DNA from: Candidatus Abyssobacteria bacterium SURF_5
GTDB taxonomy: Bacteria; Abyssobacteria; SURF-5
Direction of reading: 5' to 3'
NCBI GenBank assembly: GCA_003598085.1
Contig: QZKU01000110.1
Location: forward strand, 1-29,406
Length of the DNA stretch: 29,406 nucleotides
Shown: positions 7,358 to 25,690 of the stretch, one piece after another
Numbering within the stretch: the first letter of the stretch is position 1
Layout of the letters: each line of letters starts with the position of its first letter
Made by a program: the position numbers and the translations under genes
Notes under the pieces: model-generated
The model's input: the letters and a program-made list of their open reading frames with translations, nothing else
The model's database searches: none
Told to the model about the DNA's origin: nothing

Positions 7358-8941
7358 TTACCGCAGCATATAGATCAACTGAGGCCGAGTTCTCAACCCG
7401 GTAACCGGCCAAAACACCGAGTCATCTTCAAAAACCGGCCGCGTGGCGACTGCATAATGCTGCAGCCTCTCGCGCAACCACCCCGTCATCAATGGGTCCG
7501 AATCAAGGATCACCGCCGAAAAGGCGCCCTCCCGTAATGCCTGTTCGGTCTCGCAAACAAATTGCGCTATTTCCGGTTCTCCGGTGGTTCTGAGGAAATC
7601 GTCCACCGCCATCGCGTGGGCATAGCTTCTCTTGCCTGCCAGCGAAGCGAGGTAACCATGATACGGAATAAAAACCTCACCTTCCATTTGGGCTAACGTA
7701 TCCACGATTTTCCTTCCCGCCGCCAGGTCATTCTTGCCGGGAATTTGCGGAAACGGATCATACATAAGAATCGAAAACTGCGCCAATAAAGCGCAGCAAG
7801 TCGTGATCTCGGCGAATGTCTTCCTCTTCCTCGAAAGAGTCGAGCACCATTGGAAGAGATCATGGATTGCAATGCCAAACAGAATCGAGATGAAGGCGTA
7901 TGCCGGCATCGGGACATTCAGATAGCTGCCGTGCTTGAATCTGGAGAGCCACGGCACCCCAATCATTCCTATTCCTATCGCAGTATAAAAAAATCTGTGC
8001 TTCGGACTACGGATATCCCGCTTGACGAGATACCAAAGTGAAAGGAAACATGCTATGGGAAGGGCAAAAAACAGATCGTGGGTCCAATAGTAAGTTAACA
8101 TGTTCTTGAGTGTTTCCAAGCGGCGGGGGGAGCTGAAAATGTAGTAGAGATACCACCCATCGTTCAGATACGTGAACAAGACGGTACTTATGCCGAAGAC
8201 GCCGGCAACTGCCCCGATGAAATAGAGTGAGCGAGTGCGGTGAACGAGAAGGCAGTAGACCGCCATCGGCAAAGAGATGAACAGCGCCAGTTGCTTGGTC
8301 AGGAAGGACAGGGAGACCAGAAGTCCAGCAAGCATCAATGAATAAGCCGACTCTTTGAACCTGATCAGGTAAATGCAAGGCAACAGCAGCGCCACGAACA
8401 GCATATCGACTCTTCCAATGTCGAACCACGCGCCGCTTATGTGAAAAGTGGCGGCAAAAAGGCCGGCGGCCAAGGCCGCCGCAAATCTGCTCGCGGTCTC
8501 CCGTTTGACGATTAGAAAAATGAACAGAAGACTTGCAAGCGATGAAAGAAGAGAGACAAGCCTGAGCGGGAAAAATCCGAAACCGGTCGCTTTGGATACA
8601 GCCGCGCTGAGATAATAGTAAAATGGCGTATACAAGAAGGTAATGAAGTCCAGCGAGGGCCTCACGTACAGTTGTTCGCCGGAAAGAATCCGCCTGACAT
8701 GCTCCAGAACCCCGCCTTCCATCCATTCCAATTGGAAAGGGTACCGGATCCTGCACAAGGCAATGATGAGATACAACCCGATATATGCTGGAGAAAACAA
8801 CAGAAGGATATGCTTAAGAACGCGTACAACAGAGGCCGGCGCCTTATCCACATCCCTCGTAATATCTCTTTGATCCTGCAAAACAGGCAAGATACTTATT
8901 GCCGCCTCCTCGGCAGATAAACGTTTTATTCGCCCACCCAT
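7358..8941 (-). CDS. GT-C fold membrane glycosyltransferase (GT39-like)
   Basis: A 527-residue polytopic membrane protein with about ten hydrophobic helices and a soluble C-terminal region. Near the first periplasmic loop it has FQLEWMEGGVLEHVRRILSG, and later TPFYYYLSA and GAWFDIGRVDMLFVALLLPCIY, features of GT39/ArnT-like GT-C transferases, which take sugar from a polyprenyl-phosphate carrier on the outer face of the inner membrane. The conserved acidic residues in the first loop would be catalytic. ATG 8941 is preferred; a TTG two codons upstream is possible. A TTGAAA-18-TATAAG promoter lies just upstream. It is a plausible user of the lipid-linked sugar made by the GT2 at 4663-5367. The acceptor (lipid A, protein or glycan) is unknown. 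Confidence 0.8.
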   Translation of the reverse strand: MGGRIKRLSAEEAAISILPVLQDQRDITRDVDKAPASVVRVLKHILLLFSPAYIGLYLIIALCRIRYPFQLEWMEGGVLEHVRRILSGEQLYVRPSLDFITFLYTPFYYYLSAAVSKATGFGFFPLRLVSLLSSLASLLFIFLIVKRETASRFAAALAAGLFAATFHISGAWFDIGRVDMLFVALLLPCIYLIRFKESAYSLMLAGLLVSLSFLTKQLALFISLPMAVYCLLVHRTRSLYFIGAVAGVFGISTVLFTYLNDGWYLYYIFSSPRRLETLKNMLTYYWTHDLFFALPIACFLSLWYLVKRDIRSPKHRFFYTAIGIGMIGVPWLSRFKHGSYLNVPMPAYAFISILFGIAIHDLFQWCSTLSRKRKTFAEITTCCALLAQFSILMYDPFPQIPGKNDLAAGRKIVDTLAQMEGEVFIPYHGYLASLAGKRSYAHAMAVDDFLRTTGEPEIAQFVCETEQALREGAFSAVILDSDPLMTGWLRERLQHYAVATRPVFEDDSVFWPVTGLRTRPQLIYMLR

Positions 8942-8975
8942 TCTCAAAAAAGGACGCTCATTATTTCATCATTTA

Positions 8976-10251: not shown

Positions 10252-12228
10252 TCATGGGGAGGCGGTTGAAGCCGCTCGGAAGTTGCGAACAAGCACCATT
10301 TCCTGAAAGGAATCGCTCATGGCGGTATACAGATAATATTTTCGGCCGGGATACTGCTGCATCAGCAGTTGATTATCTTCGCCGAGATCTCGCGCATAAA
10401 TCACGTTCCCTGCAAGCGACGGCTCGTTCAGCCAGAACCCGGCGCCATATGCCATGCGGAACGGAAAATCGTTGATGAAAACAATTGCGTTGTCAGCGCG
10501 CGCCGCCTCCACATGCTGCTGTAATGGCGACGGCAACTGCTTGTGAATGAGAGATGAGACATTGTACAGGCGCAGTCTCGACGGCAGGAAGTACCCGAGA
10601 TTGAACGCGATACAGAGAAAGATCAGTATCGACAGAAACAGCCGCGACAGATCGAGGTCTTCCCTTCCGGTCAGCCGGCTCCACAACGAAGGCGCCACGT
10701 CGATCCCGCGCGCTACCAGTATCAGCAGGAACGGACCTGCCGCACAATAATACCGCGGACCAAATGCGGAATTCTCATGAAAAAAGAATAGGAAAACCAG
10801 GCATAATGAGAGCACGCTGCCCAGAAGCAGGTAGTCCCACCTGTTCTTCAGCGCAAGCGCAAAGGGAACCGCAGCGAAAATCAGCGAGAAAACCGGCCAG
10901 CCCAGCAGATAGATCCCGACATAATGCAGCCGGTTGTTCAGGTTCACCATTCCGTACAGAAGCCGTTGCGCCGTTTCCCGAATCGAGTCCATGAACGGAA
11001 ATGCAAAAAAACCCGCATGATACCCGCTCCCGAATGACGGATCGAATACCGGCCAATTTCTTCCCACAGCGAAACCATATAAGTAAAAAAGACATAACGC
11101 CAAAACGACGCCTATCATAAGTGCGCCGGCGCAGGAAAGTCCCGTTCGGCGCCTCCAGAAAAATACCGCAAGGTATAAAATCCATGGGAACACAACCGCA
11201 AAAGTGATCAGGGGATCAATCAAAACCCCGCCCCCAAACGACAGACCGCTCAAGAAAAAGGATGATCGAATCCCTCCTTCCACTCCCTTCGTTAAAAGAT
11301 AAACGCCAAGAAGATGAAAAAAAATAAGGGGGCTGTACGGAAGATACAAGGACAGGAGAAATAAAATGAACGGCGAAAGGATCATTAAGATCGCGGATCC
11401 TCGTGCAATATCTTCTCCGTACATTTTTCGAGCGCACAGGAACAAAAGCACGCAGCTCGCCGCAGCAAAAATCGGATTAACGATCCAGGGGGCTCCTACA
11501 AGCAGTCCCACCGCAAGAAGAAGGGGAAAACCCGGCGGCGCAGGCAAAAACCACTTGTCGCTCATGATGATATTGCCAAATGCGAAAAATTCGGCCAGCA
11601 GCGGAGCCTCCGCATAGATGCCCCCGTCGCTGAAAATGCGCGCCTGGAACAAATACCCAACCTCTTCGGGGAGAATGGGAAGGTGGCGAAACTGAAAAGA
11701 GGAAACCGCGTTTGTGGCGAGAAAAACCAGGAGAGCCGAGGTCGCAAGAAATCGGTTCCTCCGACTGCCGAACACCACCCTTTGAACCTTCAGGGAAAGA
11801 CCTCGGACGAAAGTCTCCAAACAAAGGACCATCAGCACGGCTATTCCGACAAGCGCCCCCGTCAGAAACATCTGCTGCACAAATGGGCGCGTGCTTTCCA
11901 TCAATCCCCACGCGATCCCGTTAAGAACCGCCTGGCTCCGCGGATAACTGACCATCGTCAAGAAGACGCCGAACGTGGCAACAAATGGGGCAATTGCCTC
12001 GCGTGCCGGAAGCGCCGACAGGCGCGCGATCCCTCTCTCGAGAGCATGCCCTTTCCAGAGAATCACTCCCAGCACAAGCAGGCCGGTCAACCCCAGGTGG
12101 ATCGCCTGCTGGATCGTCGAATTCTCCAGGCCCCGCGTGAAATAGTCCTCCTCCATCAATATCCAGCCAAGTCCGCAATAGCCGATTAAGCCCGCAGAAA
12201 CGGCGATCCTTTTCAGACGGTAAATCAT
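10252..12228 (-). CDS. Large GT-C type membrane protein (GT39-like)
   Basis: A 658-residue polytopic membrane protein with about a dozen or more hydrophobic helices. The segment LPEEVGYLFQARIFSDGG, followed by SDKWFLPAPPGFPLLLAVG and GAPWIVNPIFAA, matches the first loop and following helices of GT39-like transferases, with the acidic EE pair in the usual catalytic place. About 180 extra N-terminal residues with four to five helices precede this core. The C-terminal 100 residues are soluble and probably periplasmic. It likely transfers a sugar from a lipid carrier to an envelope acceptor. ATG 12228 has no clear Shine-Dalgarno. It begins 37 nt after the Ser/Thr kinase gene and is probably on the same transcript. 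Confidence 0.72.
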   Translation of the reverse strand: MIYRLKRIAVSAGLIGYCGLGWILMEEDYFTRGLENSTIQQAIHLGLTGLLVLGVILWKGHALERGIARLSALPAREAIAPFVATFGVFLTMVSYPRSQAVLNGIAWGLMESTRPFVQQMFLTGALVGIAVLMVLCLETFVRGLSLKVQRVVFGSRRNRFLATSALLVFLATNAVSSFQFRHLPILPEEVGYLFQARIFSDGGIYAEAPLLAEFFAFGNIIMSDKWFLPAPPGFPLLLAVGLLVGAPWIVNPIFAAASCVLLFLCARKMYGEDIARGSAILMILSPFILFLLSLYLPYSPLIFFHLLGVYLLTKGVEGGIRSSFFLSGLSFGGGVLIDPLITFAVVFPWILYLAVFFWRRRTGLSCAGALMIGVVLALCLFYLYGFAVGRNWPVFDPSFGSGYHAGFFAFPFMDSIRETAQRLLYGMVNLNNRLHYVGIYLLGWPVFSLIFAAVPFALALKNRWDYLLLGSVLSLCLVFLFFFHENSAFGPRYYCAAGPFLLILVARGIDVAPSLWSRLTGREDLDLSRLFLSILIFLCIAFNLGYFLPSRLRLYNVSSLIHKQLPSPLQQHVEAARADNAIVFINDFPFRMAYGAGFWLNEPSLAGNVIYARDLGEDNQLLMQQYPGRKYYLYTAMSDSFQEMVLVRNFRAASTASP

Positions 12229-16463: not shown

Positions 16464-17597
16464 ATGGCTAACAAAGAAAAAGCAGCCGAAACCGGTGAAC
16501 GACCTTACCTGAAACCGGGCTACTCCGAGTTCATCTTCAAAATCCTGATTGCGGTGGGGATAGTCGCCGCAACCACTCTCCTTGTCCTGTTGCTGATATT
16601 CGCCTCGTACGCTTTTCTCCTGATTTTCGCCGGGGTCCTGGTCACGATCTTCGTTCGAAGCTTGTCAGATTGGGTCAGCGAAACGCTGCGCATCTCGTCC
16701 GGATGGGCGCTGCTCCTTACGTATCTTTTCCTGCTGATCGTCATTGGAGCGACCCTCTGGTTAGTAAGTTCCACATTGATCAATCAGTTCACGCAACTGG
16801 CCGAAGAACTGCCGCGCGCAATCGAGCAGGTCGAGGAGACCCTGGAACAATTCGAGGTGGGAAGGACGTTCCTCCGCGCGCTGCCGGACCCGGAGGCTCT
16901 GATTTCTTCCGCAACCGATATCGCGGGAAGAGCCGCCGGCATTTTTTCAACTGCTTTGGGATTTATCAGCGCATTCTTGATTATTATCTTTATAGGAATC
17001 TATTTCTCCTTTGATCCCGACCTGTATGTAAGCGGATTCCTTCGATTGATCCCGATCGATAAGCGCAAGCATGCTCGCGAGATCCTGCACAACGTCGCCT
17101 TCGTGCTCCAGTGGTGGTTGATCGGCAGGCTGTTTTCAATGTTTGTTCTCGGTACTCTTACCGGAACCGGGCTGTGGATTCTGGGTATTCCTCTGCCCCT
17201 GGCGCTCGGCGCCCTCACCGGCGCGCTTACCTTCATCCCGTACATCGGCGCCATTCTCTCATACATCCCGATCCTGCTCCTGTCCCTTTCGCAGGGACTG
17301 AACTCGGCATTATACGCGCTCCTCTTATATCTGGGTATCCAATCGGTTGAAAGCTATCTTCTGGTGCCGATTGTCGAAAAGAAGGCGGTGGAACTTCCTC
17401 CTTCGCTGACTCTTATTGCGCAAGTTGTCGCCGGCATACTGTTTGGCATTTTCGGCCTCATCCTCGCTTCGCCGCTCACTGCAACCGCTATCGTCCTGGT
17501 GAGGATTCTTTACGTGAGAAACGTCTTGGGCGATGATATTCAGGCAACTCAGACGAGAAAGACGGACGCAAAATCGGAGGAAGGCGAATCAGACTGA
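16464..17597 (+). CDS. AI-2E family transporter
   Basis: A 377-residue membrane protein with the AI-2E (TqsA/PerM/YdiK) layout: two N-terminal hydrophobic segments (about 25-68), another at 82-106, a soluble helical region (TQLAEELPRAIEQVEETLEQ), then a helix with IIIFIGIYFSFDPD, and a C-terminal bundle with LGIPLPLALGALTGALTFIPYIGAIL and the terminal FGIFGLILASPLTA. The GALTFIPYIG segment is a hallmark of the family. Members export varied small molecules or ions; AI-2 export is proven only for a few, so the substrate is open. The C-terminus is charged and cytoplasmic. Its 3' end overlaps the convergent acetyltransferase gene by 9 nt. Confidence 0.9.
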   Translation: MANKEKAAETGERPYLKPGYSEFIFKILIAVGIVAATTLLVLLLIFASYAFLLIFAGVLVTIFVRSLSDWVSETLRISSGWALLLTYLFLLIVIGATLWLVSSTLINQFTQLAEELPRAIEQVEETLEQFEVGRTFLRALPDPEALISSATDIAGRAAGIFSTALGFISAFLIIIFIGIYFSFDPDLYVSGFLRLIPIDKRKHAREILHNVAFVLQWWLIGRLFSMFVLGTLTGTGLWILGIPLPLALGALTGALTFIPYIGAILSYIPILLLSLSQGLNSALYALLLYLGIQSVESYLLVPIVEKKAVELPPSLTLIAQVVAGILFGIFGLILASPLTATAIVLVRILYVRNVLGDDIQATQTRKTDAKSEEGESD

Positions 17598-18719
17598 GTC
17601 CAATCCCCAGATAAACAGCGGGATCGGAAAAAAGCGTTCGAGCGTCCGAATCATATCCGGCGGCGCCGCCTTCAGGATGCCCGACGCGCGCTCCGGCCCA
17701 AACATCAGGCGAACAAGCATGTTTTCCCTCTCAAGATGAGCACCCTCCTTGCCAACATGAATCCATATCCCACGATCATCTGAAATTATGCCGAAATGAC
17801 TCGATGCCTGCGGGAAAAAATAACTATCGACCACCCGCGAGAGCGCAGCCGCATCGATTACTTTCATCATTGCGAGATGCTCGAGCAGGTACGGTACCCG
17901 CTTGCTCATGAGCACATCCACAAACGGATTCACGGCTGCGGGGGCCAAAATCAGAACCTCTTTCAATCCCGCCGATACGGCCAGCTTCCGCACAAGATGA
18001 AAGAGATCGGCCGGATCGCCTCCCCATTCATGGACGCATCCCTTGAAGTCTTCGCCCTTGCCCAAAACCGCATAGGCAGTGACCAAATCTCCCCGCAGGC
18101 CAACCAGCGTCCTCGCCTTCGGAATCGAAAAATACTCCTCATACTCGCGCCGTGACCGCTCGGTCCGCAGCGATTCGCCTTCATGGATGCGCATGATTCC
18201 CGCCAGATGCTTCGGATCGTACGGAGCCACTCTGCAGAGCGGCTCATCCGCGATATCGGCTATCGTCAGCCGGAAAAGATATTCGGAGCCTGCGGCCTCC
18301 AATCCGAGGCGCCGGTAAAAGGAATGCCGCTGCGTCCACAGCACCGCCACATGGCATCCGGCCTCGCGCATCAGATCCAGGCAATCTCCAACAACCCGGC
18401 TGGCAAGTCCCCGCCCGCGGTATTCGGGATCGGTCGCGACCGACCCTATGCATCCCACTCGCAAAATCGCGTCTTGCGTTCGCAGATTGGAAAAATAAAC
18501 CGCCGCGTGCGAAACCACCCGGCCGTCATGCACAATGACGCGCATGTTCCGCAGGTTCCGTTCGCTCAAAACCAGGGGATACTCCTGAAGAATCGACGGA
18601 GGCCCTCCCGGGCGGAGAGTCCGATTGAGAAGATCGATCGCAGAAGCGTGTTCCGCCGCCTTCACTGAGCGGGGGCCGTCAAAAGAAAAACCGGCCTTCT
18701 GTTCGGTACGCTTTGCCAT
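17589..18719 (-). CDS. GNAT acetyltransferase with C-terminal extension (Eis-like)
   Basis: A 376-residue protein with an N-terminal GNAT domain. GCIGSVATDPEYRGRGLASRVV carries the acetyl-CoA pyrophosphate-binding R-G-x-G loop, followed by VLWTQRHSFYRRLGLEAAG, the usual last strand-helix. The remaining 200 residues include a second GNAT-like part, so the architecture resembles two-domain Eis-type N-acetyltransferases. It would acetylate an amine on a small molecule, sugar or protein. ATG 18719 is preferred over TTG 18728 because it lies 5 nt after the upstream stop. It is the last gene of the MerR/GT2-TPR cluster and could modify the product of those glycosyltransferases or their acceptor; this is inference. 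Confidence 0.8.
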   Translation of the reverse strand: MAKRTEQKAGFSFDGPRSVKAAEHASAIDLLNRTLRPGGPPSILQEYPLVLSERNLRNMRVIVHDGRVVSHAAVYFSNLRTQDAILRVGCIGSVATDPEYRGRGLASRVVGDCLDLMREAGCHVAVLWTQRHSFYRRLGLEAAGSEYLFRLTIADIADEPLCRVAPYDPKHLAGIMRIHEGESLRTERSRREYEEYFSIPKARTLVGLRGDLVTAYAVLGKGEDFKGCVHEWGGDPADLFHLVRKLAVSAGLKEVLILAPAAVNPFVDVLMSKRVPYLLEHLAMMKVIDAAALSRVVDSYFFPQASSHFGIISDDRGIWIHVGKEGAHLERENMLVRLMFGPERASGILKAAPPDMIRTLERFFPIPLFIWGLDSV

Positions 18720-18724
18720 AAAGA

Positions 18725-20062
18725 TCAAGTGGAAACGGAGGGACGGGCGGCGCCTGCCTGAATATTCAGAGCAGCCAGGTTCCGGCTGATATCTTCGCGG
18801 GAAGGATCAAGCGCAAGGGCCCGCTTGAAGGCTTGTCTTGCCTGATCAAGACGCCCGGTGCCGGCATGCAAAACTCCCAGGTTGTTCCACAACGGCGCAC
18901 TTTCGGGCGAGGATGCAAGCGCTTTCTCAAAAAACTGCTGCGCGGCTTCGGTTTTGCCTTCGCGCAGCTCAAGCGCCCCCAGGTTCAGCAGCGCCTTCGC
19001 GTTGGAGGGATTCAACCGGTAAACCATCATCCATTCTTTCCGGGCCTTTTCATATTGGCCCTCCTTCGCCCAAAGCGCTCCCAGGTTTACGCGCGCATCA
19101 ACAAGATGCGGATTTGCCGCGAGCGCCCGCTCGTAACAATGAACCGCCTTGTCGATTTTTCCGCGTTGCTCAAGAATTATACCACATAAAAACCACGCCG
19201 GCGCATTCTCGGGGGCTTTCTCGAAAATCTTCGCCAGGTGCTCCGCCGCGCCGGCTGCATCCTGCCGGAGATGGCACAACAGCGCCAGTTCAATGCGTGC
19301 ATCAACATGGTCCGGGTCCACCTCCAGCGCCTGTTCGTGAAGCGCCGCCGCTCCCCGTAAATCGTTCAGGATGTGCCGGCGAATCAGCCCCATATCAAAG
19401 AAAACCTTGGCGCTCGGCGCCTGCACGCGCAGACTCCGCTCGCACAGCCGCAAGTATTGGAGCTGTTTCTCACGCAGCTTCTCCTTTCCCTTCTTCTCAT
19501 GAAAATGGTGAATAATTATGCCTGTCGCCGCAATCTTCCCCCCGCACCTCCTGATCGAGGAATCCACGGTCTCATGAACCGCGCCTTCGAAACGGATGCG
19601 GGTATCCCGCCTGAACAGGCGAACCACCTGCCCCGCAATCCAGCCGTCCCACCCGTTTCCTTCCGCATATGAGCCGTCATTCGAGACCCAACGAACGTCG
19701 CGGCTGTCATTCGAATAACTGCGATAGGTGAAAAGATGCCCGGCGGCCCTGCCATTGAGCAGAGCGGCAATTGCCCTCTTGTCGCGTTCGGCGATGATCT
19801 CATCCGCATCGAGCACGAGAATCCAGCGGCCGCGCGCGAGCTCTATCGACCTGTTGCGGGCGCTGCTGAAATCGTCGTTCCACTCGTGCTCATATACCCG
19901 CGCCCCTAACTCCCGCGCGATTTTAGGTGAGCCGTCCGACGAACCGGTATCCACTACTATGATCTCATCGACAATATCCCTGACGCTCCGCAGGCAATGC
20001 GGGAGGAACTTGGCTTCGTTTCTGACGATCATGCATAGACTGATTTCGCACTCGGTCTTCAT
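18725..20062 (-). CDS. GT2 glycosyltransferase with C-terminal TPRs
   Basis: A 445-residue cytoplasmic protein. The N-terminal GT2 domain starts ISLCMIVRNEAKFLPHCLRS, has VVDTGSSDGS at about 37-46 and the metal-binding LDADE (84-88), and ends near IRFEGAVHETVDSSIRR and HHFH. About five TPR units follow from about residue 215 to 435 (NPHLVDARVNLGALWAKEGQ and similar). The GT2-TPR layout is shared with SunS-type peptide S-glycosyltransferases and other protein-modifying GT2 enzymes, where TPRs bind the acceptor; that role is inferred here. ATG 20062 lies 14 nt after the stop of the triple GT2-TPR gene; a GTG three codons earlier is possible. Confidence 0.88.
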   Translation of the reverse strand: MKTECEISLCMIVRNEAKFLPHCLRSVRDIVDEIIVVDTGSSDGSPKIARELGARVYEHEWNDDFSSARNRSIELARGRWILVLDADEIIAERDKRAIAALLNGRAAGHLFTYRSYSNDSRDVRWVSNDGSYAEGNGWDGWIAGQVVRLFRRDTRIRFEGAVHETVDSSIRRCGGKIAATGIIIHHFHEKKGKEKLREKQLQYLRLCERSLRVQAPSAKVFFDMGLIRRHILNDLRGAAALHEQALEVDPDHVDARIELALLCHLRQDAAGAAEHLAKIFEKAPENAPAWFLCGIILEQRGKIDKAVHCYERALAANPHLVDARVNLGALWAKEGQYEKARKEWMMVYRLNPSNAKALLNLGALELREGKTEAAQQFFEKALASSPESAPLWNNLGVLHAGTGRLDQARQAFKRALALDPSREDISRNLAALNIQAGAARPSVST

Positions 20063-20076
20063 CGCTTGCACGTGTT

Positions 20077-23000
20077 TCAGATCGCCTTTCGAATTTTGGC
20101 CGGCAAGCCCTTCTCCAATAGCTCCAGATACCGGTTCAGTTTCTCTCCAAGTTCCTTCAGATCGAGTGGAAGAATTGTCGGAGATACTCCTACCGACTTC
20201 GCCGTCTCGAGATGCGGAGAGGCGGCCTCAAGATCGCCTCCCAAAAACTTCCTCTCCCCGAGCAGGAAATGCGCAAGCCAGTTCTGAGGAGAAAGCTCAA
20301 TGGCTTCTTTCAACCACGCCTCGGCTTGGGCGGAATCGCCGCCGGCCGCCGCGCAATCTGAAAGCACAACGGCCGCAAGCCAGAAAACGTCTTTCCAGGT
20401 CTTCATGTCGACTTCTTCGCGCAGCCGCCACAATTCCCGAAGCCACCCGGCGGCCGCGTCCACCTGGCCGCAGAACAGGAAGCCCTGCGCAAGCGCAAAA
20501 AGAATGTAAGGGTCCTTCGGCCTGTTCGCCAACTCGCGAGAAAGCAGTTTCAGGTTTCGCAGATTCTTCCGCAAAACTTCTTCATCATCTGAATACCCGA
20601 CGTGACGAATCGTGAAGTCAGGACAGTTTACCAGGTCCACTCCGGCGGAAACCAGGCTTCGGACGACTTGTTCATGGACCGCCCCCTGCCACTTTAATTC
20701 CGACTTGTTCGGAAACAATCTCAGCGTGTAATTTCGTACTTGCGCTCGTCCCCTGCCAATCTCGGAGTCGAGCGGAAAGAATACTCCGCAGGCAGTCCCT
20801 CTCGCAATGAATTTGCGCAGCGTTTGGACCGCTTTCGGCTCAAGACGATCATCAGCGTCCAGCCAGAAAATCCACTTTCCCTTGCTGTGCCTGAGCGCAA
20901 CGTTTCTCGCCTCCGCAAAATTATCATTCCATTGATGCCGCAACACTGTAGCTCCGAGTGATTCAGCTACCTCCCTCGTCGAATCCGAAGAGCCGGTATC
21001 GACAACAACGGTCTCATCGAAAAGCGCTGCAATCGGCGCAAGCCCCTCCCTGAGGTTGCGCTCCTCATCTCTCACAATCATGTTCAACGTCAGATCGAGC
21101 CGCCGGGGATGAGCCCCCTTCAGCTTCGCATCAACATATTCGAGATTGTTCCGCGCAATCCGGTGATCCGGATCGAGCGCGAGCGCCCGCTCGAGCAGTC
21201 CCCGCGCCGCTTCAAATTCGCCGGCGCGAGCCTCCACATATCCGAGCTTCGCGAGCGCGTTCACATCGTGAGGATCGAGCGCCAGCGCCTTCCCGTATCG
21301 CTGTTCCGCTTCAGCCAGTCGCCCGCTTTTTTCCAGGACCACCCCGAGATTATAAAACGCGCAAGCCGACGCGGGATTTGCGGCGATAACCTCCTTAAGC
21401 AGTTCCTCCGCCTCGGATAGCTTGTTCAGGTGAATTTTCGCTATCGCGAGGTTCAGAAGGATTCGCTCATCCCGCGCTCCAAGTTCAAGCGCCCGCTCAA
21501 GCGGCCCCTCCGCCTGCCCATATTCGCCTACGTCCAAGTACTGTATCCCCAGCTCATACTGCGCCTGAGCGTTGGCGGGAGATTCCTCCGCCTTTCGTTT
21601 GCCAAGTTCCAGATAATAGCGCCTCTTCGCGTCCCGTCCTCTTACGTAGCCGTAATGATGCACCGGGACATCGATATTTTCGATCCGCTTTCCAGCCCTC
21701 AGAATTGAAGGCTCGACGCACTCGTGCACGCGCCCCTCGAACCTTACTCCCGGAACCTTCCTGAACAGCCTCACCTTCCTTGACGGAAACCAGCCCGGCT
21801 GTCCGCACGCGTACGGATCGGAAACCTCGACCTGCTGCCAGCCCACAATCCGGCGATCGGTCGAGTAGTTGCGGGTGAGCATGGAATAGCCCCACGTCTC
21901 GCCCGCCGGAGAGAGGGAAAGGATCTTCTCCAGGTCCCGACGAGCAATGATTTCATCGGCGTCAATCACCAGTATCCAATCCGAAGTCGCGGATTCCACG
22001 GCCGCGTTTCTCGCAGCGGAAAAGTCGTCTTTCCACTCTGCCCGCTCCACCTTAGCCCCGCAAGAACGCGCGACCTCGGCCGTGGCGTCCGCGGAACCGG
22101 TATCGATCACCACAATCTCATCGGAGATCGGCATCACGGATTCAATGGCCCGCTTTATCTGCTGTTCCTCATTTTTCACGATAAAACACGTGCTGAGGGT
22201 AAAAGACTTTCCCGCATTTCCCGAAGGCGCCGGTCGCATCGGGAAATTGGGAGGTTCGCATGAAGCTGACTGTCGTAATCTCTTGAGGTTAGCCTTCACG
22301 CTCGAACATTCCGGCGCGGCTTTCATAGCCTTCTGGAACGCCTCCTCAGCTTCAGTAACCCGGCCGATCGAAGCATAGAGGGCGCCAAGATTGTTCAATG
22401 CCTTGCTATCTGCGGGATATCTCTCAAGCAGCCTGCGGTATGCCGACTCGGCTTCCCGTTCCCTGTTCAGTCTTTGGAGCGTTACCGCCAGATTATACAG
22501 CGAGTCGTAATTCTTCGGATCAAGCTGCGAGGCGGCCTCAAATTCCTCCGCCGCCTCCCTCAGCCGCCCGGCACTTAAAAGGACGACGCCCAGATCATAG
22601 TGCGCCGGAGCAAAGCCATCCTCCAGTCTGAGAGATTTCTCGAATGAAAAATTTGCATCTTCCATCATGCCGAGACGAGCCTCGATGACTCCCAGCTCAT
22701 AGTGCGCCTTGTAATCATTCGGGCTTTCCTTGCATTTTATCTCGGCCAGCCTCCTCATCCGCGCCAGCTTCGCCCTCATCAGGGCTTCCGGTTTCAGATA
22801 GCCGAAATGGTGTACCGGAACGTCGAGCGGCTCGATTTTGCCGCCAACACGCCGAATCGAGGGCTCCACCAGCTCGTGCACCCGCCCCTCAAACCGTATC
22901 TGCGGCAGGTTGCGAAAGAGACGCACCTTCCGGGATTCCACCCAGCCGCGAAATCCAGCCGCCGGCGCAAATCTGCCGTCATTGAGGATGAAATTGGCCG

Positions 23001-23391
23001 AGGACGCGTCATCCGTATAATTTCTGGTTGGAAGCGTGAACCCTGCGGCGTCCGTCTCCTCGATCGCCCTGCGGATGGCAGGCGCCGCGTCGGGTGACAG
23101 AACCTCGTCGGCATCGAGAATCAGAGTCCATTCAGACCGCGCCATCTCAAGAGACGCATTCCGGGCACCACTGAAATCATCTGCCCATTGAATCGACTTC
23201 ACGTTCGCCCCCAGTCGCCGGGCAAGTGCGGCGGTTGCATCGGTCGAACCGGTGTCCACAACATTGACTTCCCAAACCAGCCCGCGAGCGCTTGCAACAC
23301 ATCGAGCGAGGTTTTCCTCCTCGTCCTTCACGATCATGCACAGCGAAATCGATCCCGGTGATGAAGACTTTTCTTCTTTTCTAGGGTTCAT
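20077..23391 (-). CDS. Triple GT2-TPR multidomain glycosyltransferase
   Basis: A 1104-residue protein made of three consecutive GT2-TPR modules. Module 1 has GT2 at about 14-200 (VVDTGSTDAT; metal site DADE 93-96) and TPRs at 227-362. Module 2 has GT2 at 397-582 (VIDTGSADAT; DADE 477-480) and TPRs at 609-755. Module 3 has a shorter GT2 at 765-935 (VVDTGSSDST; DADD 845-848) and helical repeats at about 958-1070. Modules 1 and 2 both keep SRKVRLFR…RFEGRVHE.VEPSI and a DVPVHH.GY end; module 3 is more diverged there (TLRLFPNKSELKWQGAVHE). All three DxD-type sites look intact. No signal peptide or membrane helix is present, so it is cytoplasmic. ATG 23391 overlaps the end of the MerR gene by 11 nt, implying coupled translation. 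The acceptor is unknown; a repetitive protein or peptide is one possibility. Confidence 0.9.
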   Translation of the reverse strand: MNPRKEEKSSSPGSISLCMIVKDEEENLARCVASARGLVWEVNVVDTGSTDATAALARRLGANVKSIQWADDFSGARNASLEMARSEWTLILDADEVLSPDAAPAIRRAIEETDAAGFTLPTRNYTDDASSANFILNDGRFAPAAGFRGWVESRKVRLFRNLPQIRFEGRVHELVEPSIRRVGGKIEPLDVPVHHFGYLKPEALMRAKLARMRRLAEIKCKESPNDYKAHYELGVIEARLGMMEDANFSFEKSLRLEDGFAPAHYDLGVVLLSAGRLREAAEEFEAASQLDPKNYDSLYNLAVTLQRLNREREAESAYRRLLERYPADSKALNNLGALYASIGRVTEAEEAFQKAMKAAPECSSVKANLKRLRQSASCEPPNFPMRPAPSGNAGKSFTLSTCFIVKNEEQQIKRAIESVMPISDEIVVIDTGSADATAEVARSCGAKVERAEWKDDFSAARNAAVESATSDWILVIDADEIIARRDLEKILSLSPAGETWGYSMLTRNYSTDRRIVGWQQVEVSDPYACGQPGWFPSRKVRLFRKVPGVRFEGRVHECVEPSILRAGKRIENIDVPVHHYGYVRGRDAKRRYYLELGKRKAEESPANAQAQYELGIQYLDVGEYGQAEGPLERALELGARDERILLNLAIAKIHLNKLSEAEELLKEVIAANPASACAFYNLGVVLEKSGRLAEAEQRYGKALALDPHDVNALAKLGYVEARAGEFEAARGLLERALALDPDHRIARNNLEYVDAKLKGAHPRRLDLTLNMIVRDEERNLREGLAPIAALFDETVVVDTGSSDSTREVAESLGATVLRHQWNDNFAEARNVALRHSKGKWIFWLDADDRLEPKAVQTLRKFIARGTACGVFFPLDSEIGRGRAQVRNYTLRLFPNKSELKWQGAVHEQVVRSLVSAGVDLVNCPDFTIRHVGYSDDEEVLRKNLRNLKLLSRELANRPKDPYILFALAQGFLFCGQVDAAAGWLRELWRLREEVDMKTWKDVFWLAAVVLSDCAAAGGDSAQAEAWLKEAIELSPQNWLAHFLLGERKFLGGDLEAASPHLETAKSVGVSPTILPLDLKELGEKLNRYLELLEKGLPAKIRKAI

Positions 23392-23821
23392 ATGAGGTCT
23401 GCTCCTGCTCGTTTTCTGACGGGGAATATTGAAGGAAACGCAGAAGTCTTTCCTTTAAAAGCGCGGTAATCTCCAGAACAATCGAGTCGATCAGGTCGGA
23501 GCGGATGTCGACTTCCCGGCTAACCGAAGGAGGCGGAGAAGAAAAGGCAACTTCCGCCTTCAGCCGGCGCCCTATGGCCGCCAATGAGTACCCGTGCACC
23601 TCCGACAGACGTTTGATCTCCAGCACGCACTCGACCGCCTGCCGATCATAGCGGCGCTGTCCCCCCGCCGTCCTCTGCGGTTTCAGAACATGCGGCATTA
23701 CCCGCTCCCAAAATCTGAGCGTATGGGGCGGGACACCCGTTAAATCGCTGACGCGCCGGATCGTAAGCGCATTTTCCTGTTCTACCGCCGCGCCCGGTTT
23801 CTCCTGTAATTGCGCCTGCAC
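23381..23821 (-). CDS. MerR-family transcriptional regulator
   Basis: A 146-residue DNA-binding protein. The N-terminal MerR winged helix (about 19-88) reads LTIRRVSDLTGVPPHTLRFW then GGQRRYDRQAVECVLEIKRL, with HGYSLAAIGRRL as the third helix. The C-terminal half is short, with a final helix (DLIDSIVLEITALLKERLLRFL) likely for dimerisation; there are no cysteine ligands of the metal-sensing MerR type. The GTG start at 23821 is set by AGGAGG a few bases upstream. Its end overlaps the triple glycosyltransferase gene by 11 nt, so it probably controls its own cluster, and perhaps the divergent histidine kinase as well. Confidence 0.9.
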   Translation of the reverse strand: MQAQLQEKPGAAVEQENALTIRRVSDLTGVPPHTLRFWERVMPHVLKPQRTAGGQRRYDRQAVECVLEIKRLSEVHGYSLAAIGRRLKAEVAFSSPPPSVSREVDIRSDLIDSIVLEITALLKERLLRFLQYSPSENEQEQTSYEP

Positions 23822-23872
23822 CGCGTCCTCCTCATAGAGGAAAGAATTTCTTCCTTCCCCTTATCTATCGGC

Positions 23873-23891
23873 AAAGTTGAACGTTAACTTT
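23873..23891. promoter_or_regulatory. Candidate MerR operator dyad
   Basis: AAAGTT-N7-AACTTT has perfect 6-bp arms in the divergent gap between the MerR gene and the histidine kinase. A further TAACTTT follows at 23890-23896. The position suits autoregulation of the MerR gene, but no clean minus-strand -35/-10 pair was identified, so this is tentative. Confidence 0.4.
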
Positions 23892-23919
23892 AACTTTTTC
23901 CTTGTCTTTTTCCCAAGAG

Positions 23920-23949
23920 TTGCCAAATCCCGCGGATGAACTGTATAAT
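23920..23949 (+). promoter_or_regulatory. Near-consensus sigma70 promoter for the histidine kinase
   Basis: TTGCCA (23920-23925), 18 nt, TATAAT (23944-23949). Transcription would start near 23956. Because an in-frame ATG at 23936 lies within this promoter, the protein must start downstream of it if this promoter is the one used. Confidence 0.7.
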
Positions 23950-23995
23950 CTTTTCGCTTGAAAGATCCGTTCTTTTGGCCATGGGAGCGTTCATC

Positions 23996-25690
23996 ATGCC
24001 TTTTCTGGAGATTTCCTCGGGCTCAAAGGAACCAACCGTCTATCACCTCCGCTCGGGACGCGTGACAATCGGACGGTCGCGCCAAAACGATGTCGTGATC
24101 GAGGACGATACAGCTTCCTCCCACCATGCAGTGATTTCCCTCATTAACCGCGCATACTTTATCGAGGACACCGAGTCCGCAAACGGCACGTATGTTAACG
24201 GGATTCAGGTCCGCAGAAAACGCCTGCGCGACCGGGATCGGATATCCATCGGAAGGACCTACCTGCGATACTTCGTCAATCCAAAACCCGATCGGCAAGA
24301 GGAGGTGCCGGTCAAACGAGCCGATTCGAAAAAGATCCTCCGTGCTTTCGCCGCGGACACCCCATCCCCAAAAAGCCTGGTCGCGCTGCGGCAGGCCCAC
24401 GAAAATCTGAAACGCATCTACGAAATCAATGCAATCATCTCTTCCATTTTCGATGTGAGAGAACTCGCGGAAAAAATCCTGGAAATCATCTTCTCGCTCT
24501 TCAAGGCCGACCGCGGCTATATCATGCTCCTCGAGACGGGACAGTCCGAGCTGAACCTGGTCGCCTCAAAGAAAAAAAACGGCGCCGGCGCTGAGACCGG
24601 CGTCGATTTCAGCCGTACCATCGCTCAGCGCGTGCTCGAGACGGAAGAGTCCGTCATCACCTGTAACGCTCCGGAAGATGAACGCTTCCCCGACAGGCAA
24701 AGCATCCTCGGCGGCCACATCAAGTCCGCCATGTGCGTCCCCATCCGCGGCAGAAACGACAAACTCGGCATCATCTACGTTGACCACCGCGGGGCGCCCG
24801 ATCACTTCTCCGAAGAACACCTCCAGTTGCTCACAATGGTCGCCAATTCCGCCGGCATCGCCATCGATAATATCCGCCTGTATGAGGAAAATCTCAAGAT
24901 CCAGGTGCTCAAAGCCATCAACGAGGAGATGCAGGAAAAAAACCGCAAATTGATGGAGCTCGAATCGCTGAAGGAAGACCTCATCAATATGGTCGTCCAC
25001 GACATGAAAAATCCGGTCACCAACACCATGATGGCCCTCGACCTGGTGGCCCTGGACCCGCAGGCGCAACTCTCCGAACAGCAGCGGGAATACATACAAC
25101 TCGCAAAGCGAAATCAGTTTAAATTATCTGAAATGATCGCCAACCTGCTCGAACTCTCGAAACTCGAGAGCGGACGCATGCAGATCGAGCGCGCTCCGCT
25201 GGACCTCGCCAACCTGCTCGACCGCGTCGTCGAGCGCTATGCGGCCGTCTTGAACAAAGAAGACCAGTCCGTTATCGCTGATATCAAACCCGCCGCCCGG
25301 GAAATCGTCTCCGACGAGCGGCTCCTGGAGCGCGTTCTCTCCAACATCCTTTCCAACGCCATGAAGCATAGTCCGCCAAGAGCCGAAATACATGTTGCCG
25401 CCGCGCCCGCCGCCGACACCGGTGAGATCGTCGTCTCCGTCCGCGATTTCGGAGACGGCATTCCTTCCGAATTTCATCAGAAGATCTTCGAGAAATTCTG
25501 TCAGGCAGGACTCCGCGAATTGGGACACCGAACCGACACCGGCCTCGGACTCGCCTTCTGCAAAATGGCCATCGAAGCCATGGGCGGACGCATCTGGGTC
25601 GATAGCAAACCCAAAAAGGGAAGCTGCTTCTCCTTCTCTCTGCCGCGCCAACCTGTCGCCGAAACCGCCAGCGACCAAACCTCTAATTAG
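23996..25690 (+). CDS. FHA-GAF sensor histidine kinase
   Basis: A 564-residue soluble kinase. An FHA domain (about 14-95) has GRVTIGRSRQNDVVI…SSHHAVI…NGTYVNG, with the Arg, Ser and His residues that bind phosphothreonine. A GAF domain follows (about 150-295; ADRGYIMLLE…CVPIRG…GIIYVDHR). After a coiled-coil linker, HisKA carries the phosphoacceptor His335 in VVHDMKNPVTN, and the ATPase domain has the N box (450-458), DFGDGIP (484-490) and TGLGLAFC (515-522). There is no receiver domain, membrane helix or adjacent response regulator. ATG 23996 is chosen because GGGAG at 23983-23987 is well spaced and the upstream ATG 23936 is inside the promoter; ATG 23981 is an alternative. FHA suggests a link to Ser/Thr kinases such as the one at 12266-13120. 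Confidence 0.92.
   Translation: MPFLEISSGSKEPTVYHLRSGRVTIGRSRQNDVVIEDDTASSHHAVISLINRAYFIEDTESANGTYVNGIQVRRKRLRDRDRISIGRTYLRYFVNPKPDRQEEVPVKRADSKKILRAFAADTPSPKSLVALRQAHENLKRIYEINAIISSIFDVRELAEKILEIIFSLFKADRGYIMLLETGQSELNLVASKKKNGAGAETGVDFSRTIAQRVLETEESVITCNAPEDERFPDRQSILGGHIKSAMCVPIRGRNDKLGIIYVDHRGAPDHFSEEHLQLLTMVANSAGIAIDNIRLYEENLKIQVLKAINEEMQEKNRKLMELESLKEDLINMVVHDMKNPVTNTMMALDLVALDPQAQLSEQQREYIQLAKRNQFKLSEMIANLLELSKLESGRMQIERAPLDLANLLDRVVERYAAVLNKEDQSVIADIKPAAREIVSDERLLERVLSNILSNAMKHSPPRAEIHVAAAPAADTGEIVVSVRDFGDGIPSEFHQKIFEKFCQAGLRELGHRTDTGLGLAFCKMAIEAMGGRIWVDSKPKKGSCFSFSLPRQPVAETASDQTSN

Follow-up and report, generated by a model that had tools for sequence, protein, structure and literature searches.

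The window, by which we mean the whole stretch of 29,406 nucleotides that was analysed (contig C110 of its genome), carries an operon in the order MerR-type regulator, array of three fused glycosyltransferase modules, separate fourth module and GNAT acetyltransferase, and this operon probably encodes a machine for the O-glycosylation of flagellin in the cytoplasm, transcribed by sigma-28 RNA polymerase and with modules that would act in order. Each module consists of a GT2 domain followed by TPR helices. The features on which this reading is based are collected in Table 1.

Table 1. Coordinates, strand and assignment of the operon's features in the window
Feature	Position	Strand	Remarks
Sigma-28 (FliA)-like promoter, TAAAGTTA-n12-GCCGATA	23866..23892	minus	45 nt before MerR start
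MerR-type regulator, first gene	23381..23821	minus	Pfam MerR_1 5e-18
Three-module GT2-TPR chain, P0001	20077..23391	minus	1104 aa
Module 1 GT2 domain	22699..23358	minus	type I; corresponds to A1 of G002 and G001
Module 1 TPR helices	22261..22698	minus	match the TPR after A1; the missing A2 would come next
Module 2 GT2 domain	21556..22206	minus	type I; corresponds to A3 of G002
Module 2 TPR helices	21118..21555	minus	Pfam and structure model
Module 3 GT2 domain	20497..21102	minus	type II; corresponds to A4 of G002
Module 3 TPR-like helices	20092..20496	minus	structure models
Fourth, separate GT2-TPR module, P0002	18725..20071	minus	type I; corresponds to B of G001 and G002
GNAT acetyltransferase (Acetyltransf_9), last gene	17589..18728	minus	Pfam 7e-18

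The frame of P0001 begins with ATG and runs through 1104 codons with no internal stop. Pfam Glycos_transf_2 matches three separate stretches of its product (E 1.4e-63), each followed by matches to TPR families, and the GT domains (residues ~12-231, 396-612 and 764-965) all contain the motifs DTGS.D, W.D/N.F..ARN, DAD and VHE. An earlier note, made from the letters of this stretch, had described three complete GT2-TPR modules fused in one 1104-residue protein, each with its own metal-binding acidic motif, and had proposed a structure prediction of the full chain; the reading frame, the domain matches, the motifs (DAD is present in each GT domain) and the model all bear this description out. The full-chain model has a mean pLDDT of 87 and is composed of three GT-A plus helical-repeat units, confidence being low only at residues 1-8, 378-395, 759-763 and 1101-1104; the full-chain pTM is 0.39, the arrangement of the modules is not predicted and both joints are of low confidence. 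In the PDB this model is closest to SunS and ThuS (Z 25-26, rmsd 2.6-3.2 over 283-301 residues). The fourth module had been placed 14 nt downstream of the array, which is correct for a start at ATG 20062; for the other candidate start, GTG 20071, the gap is 5 nt. Elsewhere the genes of the operon overlap, MerR with the array start by 11 nt and GNAT, given a TTG start, with the end of module 4 by 4 nt. No other close copies of the modules of P0001 and P0002 were found in the organism's own genome. Beyond the operon, the window also holds a divergent histidine kinase with FHA and GAF domains (23936-25690), whose own sigma-70-like site (11/12) lies at 23920-23949, in and next to the shared intergenic region, and two genes for large proteins that match PMT_2 (mannosyltransferase-like) weakly (7358-8947 and 10252-12228), with a protein kinase gene and an AAA ATPase gene nearby.

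A long frame of this kind could be an artefact of assembly or of a frameshift, and the earlier note had named the joining of separate genes by sequencing errors as grounds for giving up its interpretation. Checked against two sister genomes of the same family, G002 and G001, this is not what was found, and the artefact is ruled out by the same chain in both. G002 encodes a frame of 1592 residues with four modules, A1-A2-A3-A4, plus a separate module B, and in G001 A1, A2 and a module like A4 run across two contigs that share an overlap of 141 identical bases, again with a separate B. Because the frame is also there in G002, with four modules, and window residues 193-1098 align with it without a break at 51% identity, a false join appears unlikely. 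The correspondence between modules is the same by blastp and in two trees, each set having bootstrap support of 100: modules 1, 2, 3 and 4 of the window (M1 to M4) are the counterparts of A1, A3, A4 and B, respectively. The window thus lacks A2, a type II module present in both sisters, G001 lacks A3 and G002 has all four, so that the module order in the array is I-I-II in the window, I-II-II in G001 and I-II-I-II in G002. A search for relatives with the same module count, another proposal of the earlier note, turned up three fused modules in G001, in a different order, and four in G002.

The first TPR segment of the window was considered as a hybrid of those of A1 and A2, a possibility that was rejected: up to residue ~360, sliding windows show it to be 30-60% identical to the TPR of A1 versus 17-40% to that of A2. 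Since the match is better to A1, what was lost or gained would be approximately a whole module. Since both sisters have A2 and two of the three species have A3, the simplest ancestral state that we infer is I-II-I-II plus B; the window and G001 would each have lost one module, a different one in each case. An outgroup carrying this array was not found.

The resemblance between modules 1, 2 and 4 had suggested that they arose by tandem duplication and fusion. A recent tandem duplication is rejected. AU tests reject the four window modules as one clade (p 2e-102), modules 1 and 2 alone as a clade (p 2e-4) and a clade uniting all twelve family modules that the tree then contained (p 5e-5). They do not reject an older joint origin of A1 and A3, the lineages of modules 1 and 2. 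In the separate phylogeny of the four GT2 domains, which had been proposed as a check, the closest relative of each window module is the module at the same position in a sister genome, so that the modules of the window are not each other's closest relatives, the very outcome that the note had said would count against it. Together, the rejections and the position-wise grouping with the sisters make the duplications older than the three species and, as judged from these trees, some of them older than the family. The companion idea, that one chain with several glycosyltransferases probably serves one acceptor, is supported.

The main well-supported split in the trees separates two classes of module, type I (M1, M2, M4, A1, A3 and B; support for the clade 100/99, in one of two trees) and type II (M3, A2 and A4). 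The classes also differ in the distance from DAD to HE, which is 76-82 residues in type I versus 56-64 in type II, with 60 in module 3; counted by hand on alignments, it is 63 in GmaR and 60 in SunS. These numbers bear on module 3, which had been called shorter, diverged and possibly regulatory. Shorter it is, relative to modules 1, 2 and 4, and that is what speaks for taking it as a non-catalytic or regulatory remnant. It is in modules 1, 2 and 4, however, that some 18 extra residues sit, module 3 being of canonical length, with the spacing of its class and of GmaR and SunS, intact motifs and all of the residues that are invariant across the type II alignment. Modelled alone (pLDDT 91, pTM 0.85), it gives a confident GT-A fold that matches SunS and ThuS (PDB 7msn, 7msp, 7msk) with Foldseek E ~1e-17 and TM 0.62-0.69 (query-normalised). 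A remnant is accordingly most improbable; with its class, its complete motifs and SunS and ThuS as its best PDB matches, degradation of module 3 is ruled out, and on the trees and alignments we assign it to an old second class.

Type I followed by type II within one chain recurs outside the family, in L059 (twice, in consecutive genes), L060, L108, G049, G292 and G155. Since the orders I-I, II-II and II-I occur as well, I-II is a frequent pattern and no rule. Fused chains are also seen in two genomes of an unrelated family that are sisters of one another: in G129 (L177:6450-13895) a protein of 2482 residues with two GT4 domains, four GT2 domains and TPRs adjoins flagellin, and G396 (L178:7396-13404) has a form of 2003 residues with three GT2 modules, which likewise lacks a short module between two long ones. 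The short modules of these two fall outside the main type II group in the tree, and their class therefore rests on length. As the modules of G129 and G396 do not group with those of the window family, multi-GT chains must, on this phylogeny, have arisen more than once.

The link between the operon and the flagellum, which the earlier note had not noticed, begins with its promoter. The sigma-28 pattern has a single match in the window, with 0.03 expected, and the organism's own genome has nine matches, three of which begin TAAAGT, and encodes FliA (242 bits). The spacer of the operon's site is 12 nt, compared with 11 in the E. coli consensus, TAAAGTTT-n11-GCCGATAA (PMC2859248), and the site of the organism's own flagellin gene, on contig C72, also has a spacer of 12. 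A sigma-70 scan found a single site, which belongs to the divergent histidine kinase. In the 4.6 Mb of G002 there are exactly two sites of the form TAAAGT-n13/14-GCCGATA, and they form a divergent pair, one facing flagellin and the other facing MerR and an island that ends with the array, B and GNAT; the site before this island is identical to that of the window at 25 of 27 bases. No exact sigma-28 site was found upstream of the G001 array.

The G002 island (L139/L150, G002:C44:7483-26227) consists of twelve genes on one strand, mostly overlapping. In order they are MerR (the counterpart of the window's, 47% identical), a GT2-TPR gene, a GT4 gene, a SPASM radical SAM gene, two methyltransferase genes, a B12 radical SAM gene, a GT4 gene, a TPR protein, A1-A4, B and GNAT. 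The two radical SAM proteins, one SPASM and one B12-binding, and the two methyltransferases suggest an unusual modification of sugar or protein; the accessory genes of the island are absent from the window. In both sisters a GNAT gene whose product is 48-52% identical to that of the window follows directly after B, and the array is on the same contig as flagellin. In the organism's own genome the flagellin locus on C72 (flagellin, FliD and the gene after it, an arrangement shared with G001 and G002) has no adjoining GT gene, and the array is on a different contig, so that physical linkage between array and flagellin is observed in the relatives only. From this comparison it seems that either the array or the flagellin locus moved away, and that promoter, MerR, array, B and GNAT stayed together.

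Proximity to flagellin extends well beyond this family. GT2-TPR genes lie 7-663 bp from flagellin in ten other loci of other phyla (gaps in bp: L059 178, L108 229, L073 288, L065 180, L118 210, L127 7, L083 98, G049 663, G056 337 and G026 328) and, in G292 and G155, at 100 bp or less. Among eight genomes chosen by the similarity of their glycosyltransferases, and not by flagellin, flagellin was inside the fetched region in six, versus 0.22 expected. In G026, which belongs to an unrelated family, a GNAT gene related to that of the window (31%; L145:8572-9219) adjoins GT2-TPR genes and flagellins, a placement that supports a predicted functional link between GNAT and the GT2-TPR transferases. 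Three tandem GT2-TPR genes of similar size occur repeatedly in Paenibacillus (L086-L136, e.g., L092:9926-16513). No flagellin was found within the fetched 10 kb around these three-gene sets, and for this reason we take the wider GT2-TPR family to have, on genomic context, acceptors besides flagellin too.

Some observations lend weight to the idea that the acceptor in the window species is another cytoplasmic protein or peptide (a pilin, a surface protein or a glycocin-like peptide): its array is not beside flagellin, some relatives occur in genomes with no flagellin match, e.g., in Woesearchaeota, and SunS and ThuS, which are close in fold, modify peptides. We consider this unlikely in view of the sigma-28-like promoter before the operon, the conserved island headed by MerR, which in G002 runs divergently from flagellin, and the adjacency to flagellin across many phyla. 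That promoter, the divergent pair in G002, the adjacency in other phyla and the match to GmaR make flagellin a well-supported predicted acceptor; that it serves as acceptor in the window species itself, like the division of labour between modules, the order of transfer and the role of GNAT, is what we infer from these comparisons.

By sequence, the PDB entry that best matches the GT2 domains of modules 2 and 3 is GmaR of Listeria monocytogenes (PDB 22ao), a protein of the GT2-TPR type that attaches GlcNAc to flagellin (PMC9638930). The array resembles it in the order of its parts, all four modules having TPR after a GT2 domain that carries DxD and HE motifs, and in its flagellar context, namely the sigma-28-like site and, in the sisters and not in the own genome, location on the flagellin contig. 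GmaR differs in having a single GT module and an antirepressor domain, compared with three fused modules of two classes plus a fourth. SunS and ThuS, peptide S-glycosyltransferases, are like module 3 in fold and in module layout but, unlike the array, are single modules with a bacteriocin peptide as acceptor; against the SunS family model TIGR04195, P0001 scores 176.1 bits over its three modules and P0002 62.8, both below the cut-off of 350. FlmG of Caulobacter crescentus combines a TPR part, which binds flagellin, with a GT part, and glycosylation of flagellin requires both (PMC7591256). It shares with the window the combination of TPR and GT, but in FlmG the TPR comes first and the GT is C-terminal in a single module, an order found in none of the window's modules, where GT2 is first. 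Predicted GT2-TPR flagellin transferases of Clostridium are encoded between flagellin genes; unlike the array they are separate genes, and the available part of that paper contains no fused array (PMC13317340).

Chains with more than one GT2 domain are also known from chondroitin synthase K4CP (PDB 2z86) and heparosan synthase PmHS2, each of which has two such domains, without TPR segments like those of the window. A repeating polymer made by type I and type II in turn, after the manner of these synthases, would be in keeping with the alternation of two distinct GT2 classes in the G002 chain and with a weak match of module 3 to chondroitin synthase. No close kinship to the two-domain polymerases was found, however, module 3 scoring 26.5 bits to K4CP versus 80 to GmaR; the far stronger matches are to GmaR, SunS and ThuS, enzymes whose acceptors are proteins or peptides, and neither G001 nor the window alternates strictly, which leaves a polymerase very unlikely. 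Single GT2-TPR flagellin transferases are already known (GmaR) or predicted (Clostridium). In the literature searched no fused GT2-TPR arrays acting on flagellin were found, which is no proof of absence, and it is relative to that literature that the fused arrays of three or four modules, the two classes and the loss of modules at species level are new.

In the mechanism that we propose for the operon, RNA polymerase with sigma-28 (FliA) would transcribe it along with flagellin at a late stage of flagellar assembly. Flagellin awaiting export from the cytoplasm would be held by the TPR segments, a role that has been proposed in the case of GmaR and found in that of the TPR part of FlmG. Each GT2 domain, with its GT-A fold, DAD metal site and HE motif, would move a sugar from a nucleotide donor, and GNAT may acylate a sugar. 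Types I and II would carry out different transfers in order, e.g., first the protein-linked sugar and then its extension, which is probable because the two classes are distinct and old and are found repeatedly as I-II pairs within a single chain; the fused chain would keep partly glycosylated flagellin in place from step to step. Taken as a whole, an assembly line in which fused type I and type II modules act in order on tethered flagellin, and in which gain or loss of modules rewrites the glycan on a conserved flagellin, is a tentative proposal. It is also conceivable that each module places one monosaccharide on its own Ser/Thr sites of flagellin, with no order among them, fusion serving to raise local concentration: GmaR, a single module, adds GlcNAc (PMC9638930), and the number of modules varies between sisters as if they were optional. 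The old difference between the classes and the recurring I-II order suggest, against such parallel action, that the transfers are different.

Separate transferases, working as sets, are the usual means of glycosylating flagellin; in this family up to four GT2 modules are combined in one chain. The sister species differ by a whole module on flagellins that are 76-78% identical, and they thus constitute a natural experiment on how the number and class of modules relate to the length and make-up of the glycan. If the assembly line is real, the window species without A2, G001 without A3 and G002 with all four would carry different glycans.
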